A stretch of DNA of 64,000 nucleotides, taken from NCBI RefSeq assembly GCF_009936045.1, contig NZ_QWEQ01000020.1, positions 1 through 64,000 of the forward strand, read 5' to 3'. The translations under genes and the position numbers were made by a program. Every line of letters starts with the position of its first letter. The first letter of the stretch is position 1. The notes beneath the pieces were generated by a model. That model did no database searches and had not been told where the DNA came from. It saw only the letters and a program-made list of their open reading frames with translations. Source of the DNA: Emergencia sp. 1XD21-10 (GTDB taxonomy: Bacteria > Bacillota > Clostridia > Peptostreptococcales > Anaerovoracaceae). This document shows, one piece after another, positions 5,985-19,492 of the stretch.

Positions 5985-6889
5985 TGAAATCAGGATTTAT
6001 CGGTATTATCGGCCGTCCCAATGTGGGAAAATCGACACTTTTAAACAGCATATTAGGAGAGAAGGTTGCAATTACAACGGACAAGCCTCAGACGACCAGA
6101 AACAGCATTCGTGGTATTTATACCAGATTTGATGATGAGGCAGTGACCGGTACAGACGGTGTGCAGATGGTGTTCATCGATACGCCGGGCATACACAAGG
6201 CGAGAAACAAGCTGGGTGAGGCTATGACGGAAATGGCGGTCAACACTTATAAAGAAGTAGATGTGGTTCTATTCCTTGTTGACGGCAGCATGAAAAAAGG
6301 TCCGGGAGACAAGTATATTCTGGATATGATCAGAGATTTGGATACGCCCAAAATTCTGGTTATCAACAAAATTGATAAAATGGAACCGGAAGAATACAAA
6401 GAAATTTTTGACGAGTACGAAGAGACCGGTGTCTTTGACGCAATCTACGGTACTTCTGCCCTTGAGGGCAAAAATGTACCGCAGCTGCTTGCAAAGATTG
6501 AAACCTATTTGGAAGAGGGGCCGATGTTTTTCCCCGAAGACATGGTAACAGACCATCCGGAACGGTTTATTGTCAGCGAAATCATCAGAGAGAAGGTGCT
6601 CAATTACCTGGAAGAGGAAGTGCCGCACGGTGTTGCCATCGAAATCGAGTCCTATAAAGAGGAGCCAAACATTACTAGAATCGGTGCGGTGATTTACTGC
6701 GAAAGAAAGTCCCATAAGGGTATTATCATCGGCAAGCAGGGCAAGAAACTGAAGGGTATCGGCAAAAGTGCCCGTCTTGAAATGGAAGCACTTCTTGGAA
6801 CTAAAGTGTTTTTGCAGCTGTGGGTCAAGGTAAAAGAAAACTGGCGCGACAGCGACTTTGCACTGTCTAATTTTGGTTATAAGGAATAA
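5981..6889 (+). CDS. era: GTPase Era
   Basis: 302 residues, typical for Era, which binds the 3' end of 16S rRNA during 30S assembly. G1 GRPNVGKST is near residues 11-19, G3 DTPG near 68 and G4 NKID near 125. A C-terminal KH domain carries GAVIYCERKSHKGIIIGKQG. Two ATGs (5981 and 5984) are possible; GGAAGGA at 5966-5972 fits the first. Overlap with cdd and a 3-base gap to recO indicate one operon. Confidence 0.97.
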   Translation: MMKSGFIGIIGRPNVGKSTLLNSILGEKVAITTDKPQTTRNSIRGIYTRFDDEAVTGTDGVQMVFIDTPGIHKARNKLGEAMTEMAVNTYKEVDVVLFLVDGSMKKGPGDKYILDMIRDLDTPKILVINKIDKMEPEEYKEIFDEYEETGVFDAIYGTSALEGKNVPQLLAKIETYLEEGPMFFPEDMVTDHPERFIVSEIIREKVLNYLEEEVPHGVAIEIESYKEEPNITRIGAVIYCERKSHKGIIIGKQGKKLKGIGKSARLEMEALLGTKVFLQLWVKVKENWRDSDFALSNFGYKE

Positions 6890-6892
6890 GAG

Positions 6893-7639
6893 ATGTACAC
6901 GAGCACGGAGGGGATCGTCTTTCGGCAGATAAAAGCTGCTGGCGGCAGGCGAATGATTCTTTTATTTACAAAAAAATATGGAAAAATCAGTGCGGGCAGC
7001 AGTCTAAGCGAGAAAGGCAGGAATAAAGCTGCTCTGGCGCTGCGCCCGTTTACTTATGGAAATTACGAGTTATATAAGGGAAGAGAGTACTATAATCTTA
7101 ACAGTGGAGAGGTAAGGCGCAGCTATTTTAGAATCGGCGAAGATGTAGATAAATATATGGAATCCGCGTTTGTGCTGGAACTTACGGAAAAGATGATGCC
7201 GGAGGATTTGCCGCAGCCAAAACTTTTCAATCTTCTCGTGGAATTTCTAACTGCCATGGAGAAGCGGGAGAAGAAGCATCGGACACTGGTTTTGGCCTAT
7301 GAAGTCAAGGCGATGGGCATTTTAGGCGTCTTTCCTGTTTTGGACTGCTGTGCCTGCTGCGGAGAGAAAGAGCAGTTGCAGTACTTTAGTGTTCGGGACG
7401 GCGGTATGGTTTGCGGAAAATGCAGAAATAACAGCAATGATACATTGATTTATGCGCCGAAATTTGATATAGTTAATATATTAAAGTTTTTTTCAAAAAC
7501 GCCTATGAGCGGCTTTGAAAAAATTGCGCTTGCAGACAGTGTAGGCGAGCTGCTGCAGAGCATTTTACGCGAATATATGTCATATTATTTAGAGATTGGC
7601 ACGTTAAACAGCGAGAATATGTTTAGAGGAGAATTTTAG
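6893..7639 (+). CDS. recO: DNA repair protein RecO
   Basis: 248 residues with the N-terminal OB-fold start (TEGIVFRQIKAAGGRRMILLFT), a helical middle and a C4 zinc finger (CCACCGEKEQ then CGKCR about 20 residues later). RecO works with RecR and RecF to load RecA on SSB-coated single-stranded DNA. Located immediately after era, the standard Bacillota order. Confidence 0.95.
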   Translation: MYTSTEGIVFRQIKAAGGRRMILLFTKKYGKISAGSSLSEKGRNKAALALRPFTYGNYELYKGREYYNLNSGEVRRSYFRIGEDVDKYMESAFVLELTEKMMPEDLPQPKLFNLLVEFLTAMEKREKKHRTLVLAYEVKAMGILGVFPVLDCCACCGEKEQLQYFSVRDGGMVCGKCRNNSNDTLIYAPKFDIVNILKFFSKTPMSGFEKIALADSVGELLQSILREYMSYYLEIGTLNSENMFRGEF

Positions 7640-7650
7640 GAGGTATCAAC

Positions 7651-8355
7651 ATGGAAATCACATTAGAAAAGATTGAACTGGTGAAAGACAGAACCGGCGT
7701 GACCTATAAGGAAGCCAAGGAAGCTCTTGAAGCCGCAGAGGGGAATGTGGTAGACGCGATTATTGCAATAGAGGAAACCATTGACCAGAAGCCGGCGGCA
7801 AAACTGGGAGAACAGAAGGAAGCATTGATTGCCAAGATGAAAGAGGCGGTGAAGAAAGGAAATATTTCTAAGATTTTAGTTACTCGTGACGGAGATACAC
7901 TGGTGAATATTCCTCTGACTGTTGGGGTTTTAGGGACTGTTGTTGCACCATGGGGGATGATTGCAGGTATCGTTGCAGCATTTGGCTTCAAATGCAAGAT
8001 TGAATTTGTAAAAGATGACGGCTCTGTTATTGATATTACAGAAAAGGCTGAAGACCTTTACGAAGATGCCAAAGAAAAAGGTTCCGATATCTATGGAGAT
8101 ATTAAAGAAAAGGCGCCTGGCGTTTATGAAGATATCAAAGAAAAAAGCGGCATTGCCTTTGCAAAGGCAAAGGATGCAGCGATGGAAGCAAAAGATAAGC
8201 TGAAAAAAGACAAAGGCTATGATGATGAAGATGATTTTGACTGCTGCGTCAACATTTGCGATAAGGAATGCGAGGTTTGTGTAGAGCCTTGTGAAGAAAG
8301 ATGTGATGACTGTCAGTATGATGAAATTCACGAAGAATTTCAGAAAGAAGACTAA
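7651..8355 (+). CDS. DUF4342 protein with 11-mer repeats and Cys tail
   Basis: 234 residues in four parts. Residues 1-45 form a UBA/TS-N-like fold ([20 protein letters not shown]). Residues ~55-130 match the DUF4342 pattern, with a hydrophobic stretch ([19 protein letters not shown]) near 89-107. Residues 137-180 are four 11-residue repeats with Y/F at 137, 148, 159 and 170 and mostly ExxKEK cores, predicting a long amphipathic helix. Residues 191-234 are acidic and contain eight cysteines between 198 and 221. Function is unknown. Position between recO and glyQS is common for DUF4342 genes in Clostridia. A GGAGG site precedes the ATG. Confidence 0.85.
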
Positions 8356-8390
8356 AATATATAGTGAGAAAGGTCAGGAATTTAATACTA

Positions 8391-9794
8391 ATGAGCAAAG
8401 AAGTTACTATGGAAAAAATCGTTGCACTGGCGAAAAACAGAGGTTTTGTGTTTCCGGGATCGGAGATTTATGGAGGACTTGCAAATACTTGGGATTACGG
8501 TCCTTTAGGTGTGGAATTTAAAAATAACGTCAAGAAAGCCTGGTGGAAAAAGTTTGTACAGGAATCGAAATACAATGTGGGCCTTGATGCTGCTATTTTG
8601 ATGAATCCGAGAACGTGGGAAGCATCCGGTCATGTAGGCGGCTTTGCGGACCCGCTAATCGACTGTAAGGAATGTAAATCCAGATTCAGGGCTGACAAGT
8701 TGATTGAAGAGTACATGCAGGAAAACGGCATGGAAGTTCTTCCTGTTGACGGCTGGTCCAATGAAAAACTGGAAGGATATATTGCCGAAAAAGGGATTAA
8801 ATGCCCAGATTGTGGAAAGAGTAATTTTACAGGCATCAGACAGTTTAACCTGATGTTTAAGACTTTTCAGGGAGTGACAGAGGATTCCAAGGCGGAGATT
8901 TACCTGAGGCCTGAAACTGCGCAGGGTATTTTCGTAAACTTTAAGAATGTACAGAGAACGGCAAGAAAGAAAATTCCGTTTGGTATCGCCCAGATTGGTA
9001 AATCCTTCCGTAACGAGATTACGCCGGGTAACTTTACATTCAGGACCAGAGAGTTTGAGCAGATGGAACTGGAATTCTTCTGTAAGCCGGGAACCGATTT
9101 GGAGTGGTTTGACTATTGGAAGCAATACTGCATTAACTTCCTCAAATCTCTGAATATGAATATGGAAAATATCAGAACCAGAGATCACGAGAAAGAAGAA
9201 CTTTCTCACTACAGCAATGCAACCACTGACCTGGAATACTTATTCCCGTTTGGCTGGGGTGAACTTTGGGGGATTGCAGACAGAACTGACTTTGACCTGA
9301 GACAGCACAGTGAGTTCTCCGGACAGGAAATGAACTATGTAGATTCAGAAACGGGCGAAAAGTATATTCCGTACTGTATTGAGCCGTCTCTGGGTGCAGA
9401 CAGAGTTGCACTGGCATTCCTCGTTGACGCATACTGTGAAGAAACTTTGACTGATGGAAACGGAAAGGAAGACACCAGAGTTGTGATGAAATTCCATCCG
9501 GCGCTTGCGCCATTTAAGGCTGCGGTACTTCCTCTTGCAAAGAAGCTGGCGCCGGTTGCCGAACCTGTTTATGAAGAACTTGCGAAGTATTTCAGCGTGG
9601 ACTACGATGCAGCTGGATCTATCGGAAAGAGATACAGAAGAGAAGATGAAATTGGTACACCGTTCTGCATCTGTGTAGATTTTGATACGGAAACTGACGG
9701 ATGTGTGACCATTCGTGACAGAGATACAATGGAGCAGGTTAGACTGCCGATTGGGGAAGTAAAGGGATACATCGAAGAAAAGCTAATCTTTTAA
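8391..9794 (+). CDS. glyQS: Glycyl-tRNA synthetase, dimeric type
   Basis: Class II aminoacyl-tRNA synthetase charging tRNA-Gly, 467 residues from ATG 8391. The opening [20 protein letters not shown], class II motif 2 region ([21 protein letters not shown]) and motif 3 (EPSLGADR) are all present, followed by the anticodon-binding domain. Two CxxC pairs (CKECKSRF and CPDCGKSN) flank the insertion. The frame is open back to GTG 8364, but that start has no ribosome binding site. ATG 8409 is another possible start. Confidence 0.96.
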
Positions 9795-9818
9795 TCGGTG
9801 GAAGAAGGAGATTAGAGC

Positions 9819-11867
9819 ATGAGCAAATTTGTATATGCGTTTAACGAAGGCTCAAAGGACCTCGTAGGGCTTCTCGGCGTAAAGGGGGCAAATCTGGCTG
9901 AAATGACCAGAATTGGACTGCCGGTACCTTTTGGATTTACTGTGACAACGCAGGCGTGCAATCAATATGTTGAACAGGATTGCACGATTGGCGAGGATAT
10001 CGTTGCTGAAATATTTGTGAAGCTTGAGGAACTGGAAGAAGTCACCGGAAAAAGATTTGCTGATAAAGAGAATCCTTTGTTGGTGGCGGTTCGCCCTAGT
10101 GCAGCGTGTGCTGATGTTCAGACGCCGGATACTATCTTGAATCTTGGATTAAACGATGATATAGCAGAATGTTTGAGTCAGCAGACTGCAAATTCCGGAT
10201 TTGCTTATGACTGTTACAGAAGACTGCAGCAGATGTATGAAGCGACAGTGGGATGCGGAAGTTTTCCGCAAAATCCAAAGGAGCAGCTCCTTGCTGCAAT
10301 TGCCGCTATATTTTCTGCATGGCATAGCACAGATACACAGGGTGCAGGTATTGCAGTCTGCGTGCAGGCTATGGTGTTTGGAAATCTGGGAGAGGATTCC
10401 TGCACCGGAATTGCCCATTCCAGAAACCCAGAAAATGGTGAGAACTTGCTCTTAGGAGAATTCTTGCAAAACGCGCAGGGAAAACTGAAGGCGACAGAGT
10501 CGGGGCGCTGCGCAGTAAAATCTTTGAAAGAAATGCCAATGATTTTCCCTGCTGCTTATGAAGAACTTATGCGGATTTCTGCGGTATTGGAAAAGTATTT
10601 TTTGGACATGCAGGACATGGAATTTGTCGTTGAGCGCGGTAAGCTGTGTATGGTGCAGACCGGTGCTGCGAAGCGAACTGCGGAAGCGGCAGTAAAAGCG
10701 GCGGCAGATATGGCTAGCGAAGGACTGATTACCAAGGAAACGGCGGTTTTGAGAATTGATCCAAGCAGGACCTCCTGCTTAAACGGTGGCTGTGCTGAAG
10801 AATTGGAAAAAATTCTGTCTTGGGCTGACGAAATTAGGACACTGAAAATCAGAGCCAATGTGGACAGACTGGAGGAACTGCAAACAGCAGCAGACTTTGG
10901 TGCAGAAGGAATTGGACTTTGCCGAACGGAACAGGTTCTTCTTAAAAGAGAAAATTTGCCAATAATCTGTCAGGCGATGATGGCAGATAGTCAGCAGCAA
11001 AGAGCCCATGCTCTGGAAAAACTGTTTCAGTATCAAAAAGAGTGTTTTAAGACAATCTATGAAGTGATGGAGGATAGACCTGTCGCCATTCGGCTGCTGG
11101 ATGCGCCTCTTTCTACGTACCTGCCTCATACAGAGGAGGATATTAGATGGGTTTCAGCATGTACAGGTATTTCCTGTACGCAGATTGAAAAAACATATAA
11201 GCGGCTTCAGGAAATGAATCCTATGTTGGGTCACAGAGGTTGCAGACTAGCTGTTACTTATCCGGAAATGGCGGAAATGCAGACTCGTGCTATTATAGAA
11301 GCCGCTATCGAGGTGCAGCAGCAAAAAGGTATTGAAATTTCACCAGAGATTATGGTGCCGCTCATTGGAATTGATAAAGAGATGGAATTTGTCAAGGACA
11401 TCGTAGTTAGAACGGCACAGCAGTGTAGCGAAAAGAGTGGCTGTGAAGTACGCTTTTATGTGGGCACTATGATTGAAGTACCCAGAGCAGCACTGATTGC
11501 GGATAAAGTAGCGAAAGAGGTGGATTTTTTCTCCTTTGGTGCCAGCGATTTGACGCAAATGACCTTTGGATTTTCTAGAAACGACACGGAACTAATGATT
11601 GCAGAATATATCCGAAAAGGAATTTTAACGGAGGACCCGTTTCAGACCATCGACAGAGACGGAATTGGAAGCCTGATGGATACAGCTGTTAAGGCAGGCA
11701 GACAGGTGAAGCCAACCTTAAAAATCGGGCTTTGCGGTGAACACGGGGGAGATCCTGCCAGCATTGCGTTCTGTCACCAGCTTGGACTGAACTATGTGTC
11801 CTGCAGACCGCAGCTTTTATCTGCTGCAAGAATTGCGGCAGCGCAGGCGGTGCTAAACGATAAGTAA
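9819..11867 (+). CDS. Pyruvate phosphate dikinase-like protein lacking the phosphohistidine domain
   Basis: 682 residues against about 875 for true PPDK. Residues 1-310 resemble the ATP-grasp domain (VKGANLAEM, DTILNLGLND, FGNLGEDSCTG, DMQDMEF). Residues 330-682 resemble the PEP/pyruvate TIM barrel (WADEIRTLKIRAN, GLCRTE, LGHRGCRL, MIEVPRAAL, CGEHGGDP). The swivel domain that carries the catalytic His (TxGGMTSHAA in PPDK) is absent: sequence passes from one domain to the other at residues 315-333. A second gap after residue 144 removes about 55 residues. QTR is QTG at 280-282 and TND is ASD at 575-577. Full PPDK activity is therefore unlikely; a partial reaction, binding or regulatory role is possible. 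It occupies the place behind glyQS where ppdK is often found. Confidence 0.85.
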   Translation: MSKFVYAFNEGSKDLVGLLGVKGANLAEMTRIGLPVPFGFTVTTQACNQYVEQDCTIGEDIVAEIFVKLEELEEVTGKRFADKENPLLVAVRPSAACADVQTPDTILNLGLNDDIAECLSQQTANSGFAYDCYRRLQQMYEATVGCGSFPQNPKEQLLAAIAAIFSAWHSTDTQGAGIAVCVQAMVFGNLGEDSCTGIAHSRNPENGENLLLGEFLQNAQGKLKATESGRCAVKSLKEMPMIFPAAYEELMRISAVLEKYFLDMQDMEFVVERGKLCMVQTGAAKRTAEAAVKAAADMASEGLITKETAVLRIDPSRTSCLNGGCAEELEKILSWADEIRTLKIRANVDRLEELQTAADFGAEGIGLCRTEQVLLKRENLPIICQAMMADSQQQRAHALEKLFQYQKECFKTIYEVMEDRPVAIRLLDAPLSTYLPHTEEDIRWVSACTGISCTQIEKTYKRLQEMNPMLGHRGCRLAVTYPEMAEMQTRAIIEAAIEVQQQKGIEISPEIMVPLIGIDKEMEFVKDIVVRTAQQCSEKSGCEVRFYVGTMIEVPRAALIADKVAKEVDFFSFGASDLTQMTFGFSRNDTELMIAEYIRKGILTEDPFQTIDRDGIGSLMDTAVKAGRQVKPTLKIGLCGEHGGDPASIAFCHQLGLNYVSCRPQLLSAARIAAAQAVLNDK

Positions 11868-16878: not shown

Positions 16879-18033
16879 TTATCTGTCTTCCCAGGCTTTT
16901 TTTACAGCGGCAGCGAGAGCATTGGCAGCATCTTTGTTAAATACGGTCGGCAGAATATTTTCTGGGCAAAGTTCGTCTGCAGGAATGCTGTCAGCCAGTG
17001 CATAAACTGCAGCGATGAGCATGTCCTCGGTGATGGTTGTAGCCTTTGCATCGAGAGCGCCGCGGAACAGCGAAGGGAATACCAATACATTGTTAATCTG
17101 GTTTGGATAGTCGGAACGACCTGTACCGACTACTGCAGCACCAGCAGCCTTTGCATCATCCGGGAAAATTTCTGGAACAGGATTTGCCATAGCGAAGATG
17201 ATTGGATTTTTTGCCATGGTTTTTACCATATCAGAAGAGAGGACGCCTGGTGCGGAAACACCGATGAATACATCAGCATCAACAACAGCTTCTTTTAGAC
17301 TGCCCTCTATATTGTCAGGATTGGTGAAGTCAAGAAGTTCTTTCTTGGCGCTGCTCAGCTGTCTGTGAGCGGAAACAATGCCTTTGCTGTCGCAAATTAA
17401 GATATCTCGGCACCCTAGATTATATGCCATTTGAGCGATTGCGCTGCCTGCTGCACCAGCGCCATTAATGACAATTTTGCAGTTCTCCATGGCGCGACCT
17501 GTGATACGCAGCGCATTGATCAGAGCAGCACAGGTAACGATGGCGGTACCGTGCTGATCATCGTGAAATACCGGGATATTCAGTTCCTTTTTCAGTCGTC
17601 TTTCTACCTCGAAGCAGGCAGGAGCAGCGATATCTTCCAGATTGATACCGCCAAAGCCAGGGGCAATATTCTTGACAGTTGCAATAATTTCTTCAGGATC
17701 TTGTGATGCCAGGCAAATTGGGAAGGCATCTATACCTGCAAAATGTTTAAAGAGAATTGCTTTTCCCTCCATAACCGGCATGCCGGCAAGGGCACCGATA
17801 TTGCCAAGTCCCAAAATGGCAGAACCGTCAGTTACGATGGCAACCAGCCTATCTCTCGATGTGTATTTTGAAGCAGCTTCTGGGTCATCTTTAATAGCAA
17901 GACAAGGCGTTGCAACTCCAGGCGTATAGTAGACCGCTAGATCTTCTGCGTCTTTCAGTTCTACTCGAGAGGTAATTTCAATTTTGCCGCCAGCCTTTTC
18001 ATGACGTTCCAGTGCTAATTTTCCGTAATCCAT
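16879..18033 (-). CDS. Malic enzyme, NAD-type malate dehydrogenase (decarboxylating)
   Basis: Converts malate to pyruvate and CO2 with reduction of NAD(P). 384 residues, the short bacterial form without a phosphotransacetylase domain. Recognised by VYYTPGVATPC, VTDGSAILGLGNIGALAGMPVMEGKA, NLEDIAAPACFEVE and FHDDQHGTAIV (catalytic Asp region) plus a Rossmann motif NGAGAAGSA. The frame is open 40 codons further upstream; ATG 18033 is chosen because AAAGGA precedes it and it begins the family's normal N-terminus. Confidence 0.95.
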   Translation of the reverse strand: MDYGKLALERHEKAGGKIEITSRVELKDAEDLAVYYTPGVATPCLAIKDDPEAASKYTSRDRLVAIVTDGSAILGLGNIGALAGMPVMEGKAILFKHFAGIDAFPICLASQDPEEIIATVKNIAPGFGGINLEDIAAPACFEVERRLKKELNIPVFHDDQHGTAIVTCAALINALRITGRAMENCKIVINGAGAAGSAIAQMAYNLGCRDILICDSKGIVSAHRQLSSAKKELLDFTNPDNIEGSLKEAVVDADVFIGVSAPGVLSSDMVKTMAKNPIIFAMANPVPEIFPDDAKAAGAAVVGTGRSDYPNQINNVLVFPSLFRGALDAKATTITEDMLIAAVYALADSIPADELCPENILPTVFNKDAANALAAAVKKAWEDR

Positions 18034-18124
18034 GTGAATCAGTCCTTTCCTTATATGTAGCTTATAAAATGGGGATGTAAAACCATTATTATTAAATCTT
18101 CTGTCCAAATACTTTGGCGTTACC

Positions 18125-18153
18125 AGTATACAATAAATAGCATGGAAAATCAA
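18125..18153 (-). promoter_or_regulatory. Sigma-A promoter of malic enzyme-trmO
   Basis: On the minus strand, TTGATT (18153-18148), 17-base spacer, TATACT (18130-18125). The rest of 18034-18334 holds this promoter and the divergent one at 18256; I see no gene there. Confidence 0.65.
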
Positions 18154-18264: not shown

Positions 18265-18334
18265 ATTTATAAATTGCGGATATGCTATGTGATTTATAAA
18301 GATAATAAAAATGGAAGGGATGTTATAATAAGAA

Positions 18335-19237
18335 ATGACAAGAGAATATGCCTATGCAGGAATCACAATTTTTTTGTGGGGCTCATCTTTTGCAGTCATA
18401 GGACTGATGGTAAAAGAAGTACATCCTATGGTTATGCTCTTTTTCAATAGTCTGGTCGCTTTTTTGTTTTTATTTGCCTTAAATACTGCTCAGGGAAAGC
18501 TAAAAAAAGGACGCAGCGGAATTAAAAAGAAGGAACTGCACGTTCTAGTGTTGCTGGGACTGATGACCTTTTTCTATAATGCGATGATTAACAGCAGTCT
18601 CGGATACTTAAAAGCGCAGCAGTCCAGTGTCATTAATTATTTATGGCCGTTTTTTCTGGTGATTTTTTCCTCTATCTTTTTAAAGGAGAAAATGACTGTT
18701 TGGAAAGCGCTGGCACTTTTAATTTCTTTCCTTGGTGTAGCTATCGTAGTGACAGAAGGAAATCTTGATAATTTGAGTGGTATCAGTCTTCCCGGGGTAT
18801 GCCTTGCTGGTGGAGCAGCAGTATGTTATGGTCTGTTCTGCGTAATAAATAAAGGCGTTTCCGCCGATAATTTTGTAGGAATGATGTTGTATTATTTGAT
18901 TTCTACCGTTGCATCGCTGATTGCATTACTGACACAGCAAATCGAAATTCCGGTGCTAACACTGCCGCAGTGGGGCGGTGTCTTATGGACAGGGGTGTTG
19001 GTTTACGGACTGAGCTATGCCCTTTGGGCAAAAGCCTTACAGACCGGAAACATAGCGATTATTTCCAATTTGGCGTATATTACTCCGGTGGCTTCCCTTG
19101 TTTGGATTTACTTCCTCATGGGAGAGAAAATCGAACTGTTTGCAATCGCAGGATTGTTGTTTATTTTAATTGGTATCGCAGTGCAAATCTTCGGGGAGTA
19201 TAAAAAACTTCCGGGCAAAGTGCGTGCGACTGAATGA
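18335..19237 (+). CDS. EamA/DMT-superfamily transporter
   Basis: 300 residues with ten hydrophobic segments in two EamA repeats; conserved pieces are FLWGSSFAVIGLMVKE at the start, QQSSVINYLWPFFLVIFS, and the second-repeat ITPVASLVWIYFLMGE. Drug/metabolite transporters of this class export amino acids or other metabolites; the substrate here is unknown. It is a single gene between the malic enzyme promoter and the repeat region at 19241. Confidence 0.9.
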   Translation: MTREYAYAGITIFLWGSSFAVIGLMVKEVHPMVMLFFNSLVAFLFLFALNTAQGKLKKGRSGIKKKELHVLVLLGLMTFFYNAMINSSLGYLKAQQSSVINYLWPFFLVIFSSIFLKEKMTVWKALALLISFLGVAIVVTEGNLDNLSGISLPGVCLAGGAAVCYGLFCVINKGVSADNFVGMMLYYLISTVASLIALLTQQIEIPVLTLPQWGGVLWTGVLVYGLSYALWAKALQTGNIAIISNLAYITPVASLVWIYFLMGEKIELFAIAGLLFILIGIAVQIFGEYKKLPGKVRATE

Positions 19238-19240
19238 CTT

Positions 19241-19337
19241 GCACCATTTTCCTTATAAATAGCTTGTATGGTGCGCTTTTCAGCAGGTTACTGCTGCCAC
19301 CTGCACCATTTTTCGAAAAAACACAGTCAATGGTGCG
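19241..19337. repeat. Composite palindromic repeat, copy A
   Basis: Two hairpins with GCACCAT/ATGGTGC arms (19241-19247 with 19268-19274; 19303-19310 with 19329-19336), joined by a TTCAGCAGGT-containing linker. The same arrangement with near-identical left hairpin recurs at 24689-24785. Neither hairpin is followed by a T-run. Lies 3' of two converging genes. Confidence 0.7.
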
Positions 19338-19386
19338 AAATTTTTTGTACACTACTTAAATTTATGTATTTTAAGGAACCCAAAGG

Positions 19387-19418
19387 AAAAAGCTGGAAAT
19401 TTTATTTTCCAGCTTTTT
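19387..19418. terminator. Bidirectional terminator between EamA gene and trpB2
   Basis: 13-bp perfect stem (19387-19399 with 19406-19418) with A-run and T-run flanks, so it works for either converging gene. Confidence 0.9.
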
Positions 19419-19434
19419 CTAATTTATAGCCTTT

Positions 19435-19492
19435 GCACTATTTTACTTGCCTAGTTTTGCATCATTGTCCTCACATTTGGATTTAATGGTGC
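19435..19492. repeat. Degenerate hairpin of the same repeat family
   Basis: GCACTATT (19435-19442) can pair with AATGGTGC (19485-19492) with one mismatch, directly before the trpB2 stop. Confidence 0.35.

Follow-up and report, generated by a model that had tools for sequence, protein, structure and literature searches.

The gene that follows glyS in the stretch of Emergencia sp. 1XD21-10 DNA analysed here (64,000 nucleotides, hereafter the window) encodes a homologue of pyruvate phosphate dikinase (PPDK) from which the phosphohistidine swivel domain has been removed in frame, and the protein that is left is clearly under purifying selection, relaxed relative to the full enzyme. PPDK is a three-domain machine, and homologues without the swivel have arisen more than once at this same chromosomal site. 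Taking the evidence together, we read the window protein as one case of a recurrent PPDK pseudoenzyme that is maintained by selection and most likely acts as a dimeric regulator or scaffold binding PEP/pyruvate, and we give this reading as a whole a probability of about one half.

The coordinates of the gene and its parts are collected in Table 1. Only 24 nt separate the stop codon of glyS from the PPDK gene, and because of this short gap and the good ribosome-binding site the two genes are likely co-transcribed. Further upstream, between recO and glyS, sits a gene for a DUF4342 protein with a Cys-rich tail (window positions 7651-8355), and a homologue of it is found at the same place in 12 of the 13 glyS-bearing loci checked, the contig of the thirteenth ending before it.

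Table 1. Features of the swivel-less PPDK gene and its upstream neighbour, in window positions.
Feature	Position	Strand	Remarks
glyS (glycyl-tRNA synthetase), 467 aa	8391..9794	+	start codon picked by relatives' length
Likely ribosome-binding site AAGGAG	9805..9810	+	precedes ATG of the PPDK gene
Swivel-less PPDK homologue, 682 aa	9819..11867	+	ATG start, one open frame of 682 codons
ATP-grasp (PPDK_N) half, degraded	9819..10760	+	
Codons 94-105, former loop	10098..10133	+	GSVFSMPGMMDT in full-length copy, SAACADVQTPDT in window gene
Second in-frame deletion point, codons 144/145	10248..10253	+	about 46 residues short of full-length PPDK (alignment)
Third in-frame gap, codons 172/173	10332..10337	+	about 10 residues short of full-length PPDK (alignment)
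R337G, codon 282	10662..10664	+	
Junction, codons 315-333	10761..10817	+	ATP-grasp/linker half, then short linker, then barrel; swivel plus linkers (about 137 residues) missing
PEP/pyruvate barrel, PF02896, residues 328-677	10800..11849	+	
T767A and N768S in barrel, codons 575-576	11541..11546	+	

Both outer domains are recognised by Pfam, the ATP-grasp domain (PF01326) with 99.1 bits in three stretches against a cut-off of 27, and the PEP-utilizers_C barrel (PF02896) with 258.7 bits against a cut-off of 22.8. The swivel with its catalytic His455 (PF00391) is absent from the protein at E<=1. When the protein is compared by phmmer with the C. symbiosum enzyme (1dik), residues 1-316 match within chain residues 1-371 and residues 323-682 match 515-874, with nothing aligned between the halves, and by alignment the deletion amounts to about 137 residues, in frame. 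The whole-protein model TIGR01828 scores 807.9 bits, under its cut-off of 843.45. An earlier note, made from the sequence alone, had placed the junction at residues 315-333, had put the missing swivel at about 135 residues, had denied a frameshift and had proposed alignment with PPDK families; its coordinates are confirmed, and the alignment returns both outer domains without the swivel, at close to the size it gave. A frameshift concealing the swivel is rejected, since a tblastn search with the genome's own swivel found no such sequence in any of the six frames of the 64-kb window (E<=1e-3), while the same query recovers the full PPDK. The note was mistaken in calling the gene otherwise intact, because the second and third gaps remove further residues and positions that are invariant in the family have been altered. 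The third gap is occupied, by a different sequence, in the orthologue from Emergencia sp. SUG182. The window protein was modelled with AlphaFold2 from 16 sequences, at a mean pLDDT of 86.6, and the model matches solved PPDKs across both halves with Z 43-51. Folding is thus predicted for both halves, whereas the linker is modelled less surely (the blocks within residues 311-330 stand at pLDDT 83 and 71), and 20 residues lie below 50.

Within the genus, the gene was compared across one genome per species. The genome of SUG182 (G008; locus L034, JALEOD010000005.1) carries the same swivel-less form, a protein of 690 aa that is 73% identical to the window protein, lacks the swivel at the matching point and lies in matching gene order. 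At the glyS site of the other genus mates examined (G001, G005, G006, G007 and G009-G012, eight of eleven) there is instead a full-length PPDK of 862-878 aa. We take the window gene for a paralogue that occupies the ancestral, glyS-linked position of ppdK. Horizontal arrival was considered and is unsupported, as the flanks are syntenic and the window PPDK is nested in its genus in the tree.

Beyond Emergencia, a swivel-less PPDK at the glyS-linked site was found in at least seven genomes of four genera (the source genome G000, G008, G111, G141, G143, G146 and G326). Two family-wide searches of 349 genomes each, in which a genome was flagged when its PPDK match ran straight through the swivel gap, together gave six of these, and a search within one genus added G143; given the thresholds used, seven is a minimum. 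Of the six genomes in the genus of G141, three (G141, G143, G146) have the swivel-less form and three (G142, G144, G145) the full-length one; in the genus of G326, all four mates examined, out of five, have a full-length gene at the glyS site. G111 stands alone among the 47 genomes of its genus in having a one-piece match through the gap, three of the 47 giving no match and several a partial one. In wider samples the form was seen in 3 of 393 genomes of the order, all three within the same family, and in none of 391 of the class or 393 of the phylum, the last two being weak negatives since their limit of 1e-165 is too strict even for the form in G000. In a set of 45 loci from named genomes, both outer domains are present in 36, and the SUG182 locus is the single one of these without a swivel; a plasmid search at E<=1e-100 returned five records, each of which covers less than 80% of the query. 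The copy in G143 (L134, 7296-9402) has a frame break that yields frames of 481 and 249 aa, between which some 30 residues of homology are lacking, the result of either decay or an assembly error; some copies of the swivel-less form may therefore be decaying. In Pelagibacterium lentulum (L072, 7605-9044) we observed a PPDK swivel and barrel with the ATP-grasp half absent from the 17-kb locus (tblastn, E<=1e-3), which may be a broken or split gene.

How many times the swivel was lost was judged from trees of PPDK and of glyS. A quick PPDK tree was made after three partial proteins had been excluded, and for a careful tree, computed with the swivel columns removed, nine further rows were omitted (the broken G143 copy, three outgroups, the diverged second PPDK on contig C12 of G330 and four close relatives of retained rows). 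The careful tree requires three state changes, all forced by starred branches, and placing the six intact swivel-less proteins in a single clade is rejected (p-AU 0.0004). It joins G326 to the swivel-less G141 and G146 (97/98), which speaks for either one shared loss or long-branch attraction; constraining G326 to its own genus is not rejected (p-AU 0.052). In the glyS tree, G326, G111 and the G000-G008 pair each fall within their own genus, the genus of G141 is unresolved, and at least four changes are forced. There is thus good support for three independent losses, and a fourth is likely, with the long branches of the swivel-less proteins calling for caution. The sequence out_L051, swivel-less by the motif test in the quick tree, is not counted as such, its protein of 852 aa being full in length. 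In the quick tree the G330 C12 protein (L139, 6964-9591) falls among the outgroups, and it may have arrived horizontally.

With the swivel and part of the ATP site lost, the protein would carry out no dikinase reaction and would be a PPDK pseudoenzyme. That reaction is excluded for the window polypeptide because, by the established PPDK mechanism, the two sites cannot exchange phosphate without the carrier histidine, just as the earlier note had argued. The gene would then be kept for a function in which phosphate need not move between the sites, and it is from selection that we infer a non-catalytic one. The likeliest candidate would be a regulator or scaffold, dimeric and binding PEP/pyruvate, for which the barrel provides the core while the ATP-grasp half stays folded as an accessory or serves as a partial nucleotide-binding module. 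We favour this role because PPDK dimerises through its barrel and because constraint is strongest in the C-terminal part of the barrel, dN/dS between the G000 and G008 orthologues being 0.13-0.27 over residues 1-335, 0.13-0.17 over residues 336-500 and 0.047 over residues 501-682. PPDK is described as a dimer joined through its barrels and as active only in that state (PMC5556012), and the same facts would suit a short protein that pairs through the barrel with the full PPDK of its cell and tunes it, as the dead subunit of a mixed dimer. Both genes are indeed present in G000 and G008, and the second, full ppdK that the earlier note had proposed to look for in the source genome exists there as an 875-aa PPDK on contig C8, with all listed sites intact. 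However, no other PPDK was found in G141, G143, G146 or G326, which are 92-98% complete, so a mixed dimer cannot be the general reason for retention and we regard it as unlikely. Nor was a second PPDK found in G111 (77% complete). Second PPDKs recur in Emergencia: full-length copies away from glyS form one clade in G000, G008 and G007 (L080, which is the C8 gene at 6331-8958, with L082 and L089), and G010 and G001 carry another separate pair (L083, L085).

Residues of both active sites have changed. Numbering and catalytic-site lists follow C. symbiosum PPDK. At positions where 30 full-length PPDKs of the family do not vary, the window protein has G101Q, M103P, E279K, D280A, R337G, P621A, T767A and N768S. 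Five of the eight listed ATP-site residues are kept (K22, R92, D321, E323 and Q335, with G101, M103 and R337 replaced), as are five of the six listed for the PEP site (R561, R617, E745, D769 and C831, with N768 replaced). According to the titles of PDB entries, K22A, R337A and T453A mutants of PPDK have been made. Outside the swivel, 241 positions are invariant in full-length PPDKs; 168 of them are kept in both swivel-less Emergencia species, 34 carry an identical new residue in both, 34 differ between the two or are changed in one, and five are deleted. Across all seven swivel-less forms R561, E745, D769 and C831 are kept, and R617 is kept in all six in which it aligns; N768 is retained in five of the seven and is Ser in the source species and G008.

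This retention, and the fact that the barrel superfamily includes pyruvate-enolate enzymes of decarboxylase and aldolase types, could be taken to mean that the protein is a new enzyme of the barrel only, carrying out pyruvate-enolate chemistry (as a decarboxylase or aldolase, for example) with no phosphoryl transfer. However, each form keeps five or all six of the core PEP-site residues against a background of 70-94% in the barrel, so special protection of the PEP site is not seen. Since its retention is not clearly above that of other invariant barrel residues, ligand binding is not specifically supported either. The source species has moreover altered the site itself through N768S and T767A, and ten scanned nearby genes indicate no substrate, though a malic enzyme is encoded at window positions 16882-18153. 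We accordingly doubt that a barrel-only enzyme is the explanation.

That the gene is selected at all was assessed from the two Emergencia orthologues, for which dN/dS is 0.147 (bootstrap 0.106-0.185) at dS 1.17 and dN 0.172. In the same species pair, eight neighbouring genes give 0.009-0.075 and the full PPDK 0.017. Neither species has a stop in the gene, whereas in 200 runs of a neutral simulation 23 stops arose on average (minimum 14) with 0.6 substitutions per site, and 16 (minimum 5) with 0.3. Elsewhere, the swivel-less pair G141 and G146 gives 0.11 at dS 2.7, near saturation, and G326 against G330 gives 0.13 at dS 2.1, compared with 0.05 for full-length pairs; for G111 against its nearest full-length relative dS is saturated. 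A slowly decaying pseudogene, open by chance, would account for the raised dN relative to the full enzyme, for the further deletions in the ATP-grasp half and for the broken copy in G143. It would not account for a dN/dS far under 1 at dS above 1 with no stops in two species, for the low ratio of the G141-G146 pair, or for the 34 shared new residues that have been retained, and decay by itself is unlikely, indeed improbable. The earlier note's proposal of selection for a different role has held as regards selection; the role itself we put forward as inferred. A homologous fold, here predicted, the loss of the catalytic apparatus and purifying selection together place the window protein among pseudoenzymes.

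The missing swivel might conceivably come in trans, either from the full PPDK or from a separate swivel protein, since the cell does have one intact swivel, inside the full PPDK, and two-component dikinases with split domains, such as HpeHI, are described (PMC12167813). The stand-alone swivel protein that the earlier note had suggested seeking did not come to light, as no stand-alone PF00391 was found in G000 or G008 at E<=0.1, the sole match in G000 being the one within the C8 PPDK, and no match over the cut-off was found in G143, G146 or G326. The only PF00391 over the cut-off in G141, a strong match, belongs to a 483-aa frame on contig C19 (about 18317-19453) that also has a barrel match and is probably PTS enzyme I. 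Together with the changes at R337, D280 and M103 in the window protein itself, these searches make a swivel in trans very improbable. Weakest of all is an assembly artefact or a very recent deletion, which could appeal only to the source genome being a draft (3.39 Mb in 116 contigs, 98.7% complete) and whose chance is close to nil, having been refuted by the separately assembled SUG182 orthologue with its matching flanks. The earlier note had held that a full-length gene in close relatives would imply just such a deletion or artefact; eight Emergencia species do have one, but the nearest relative shares the deletion, at the glyS-linked site, and because of this the swivel loss is lineage-specific and neither recent nor artefactual.

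The repeated loss of just the swivel, with the rest of the protein under selection, suggests that the outer domains are useful by themselves. The movement of the PPDK swivel is described as among the largest domain movements known (PMC8100219). We can suggest, tentatively, that the glyS-linked PPDK has a second function without phosphoryl transfer, and that three or four lineages in which the dikinase was unneeded have independently dropped the swivel; if that were true, the swivel-less protein would be a natural separation-of-function mutant of PPDK. The pair of full and swivel-less proteins in one cell, plus relatives with the swivel-less form only, makes such a hidden function directly testable. 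There is a practical side as well, since homology-based annotation may assign to genomes of the latter kind a PEP/pyruvate reaction of which the one PPDK detected in them is incapable. Among the matches listed, open-access titles and the openings of abstracts do not describe a swivel-less PPDK.

Among known systems, HpeHI, CreHI and PpsAB are described as dikinases whose domains are spread over polypeptides, with the swivel on one partner (PMC12167813). Unlike in these, a swivel-bearing partner polypeptide was not found for the window protein in G000 (PF00391, E<=0.1). The C-terminal domain of PTS enzyme I is a PEP-binding barrel homologous to that of the window protein (Z about 28-30); enzyme I carries a His domain of its own and lacks the ATP-grasp half. 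PPDK itself (TIGR01828; C. symbiosum, PDB 1KBL, 1DIK and 2R82) is homologous in both outer domains and has them in the same order, and the full ppdK of the genus mates occupies the same glyS-linked site; the window protein differs in having no swivel or catalytic His and in the changes to the loop at 94-105, R337, D280 and N768. The mycobacterial VadK (Rv1127c) is described as a barrel-less PPDK that regulates the methylcitrate cycle as a histidine kinase, and its authors consider that it may have originated several times or been acquired horizontally (PMC13400623). It resembles the window protein as a PPDK that lacks one domain and has turned regulatory, a role that the window protein may share. 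The window protein is not of the VadK type, and because its swivel is lost the histidine-kinase chemistry of VadK is unavailable to it: VadK, as described, keeps the ATP-grasp and phosphohistidine domains without the barrel, whereas the window protein keeps the ATP-grasp half and the barrel without the phosphohistidine domain.
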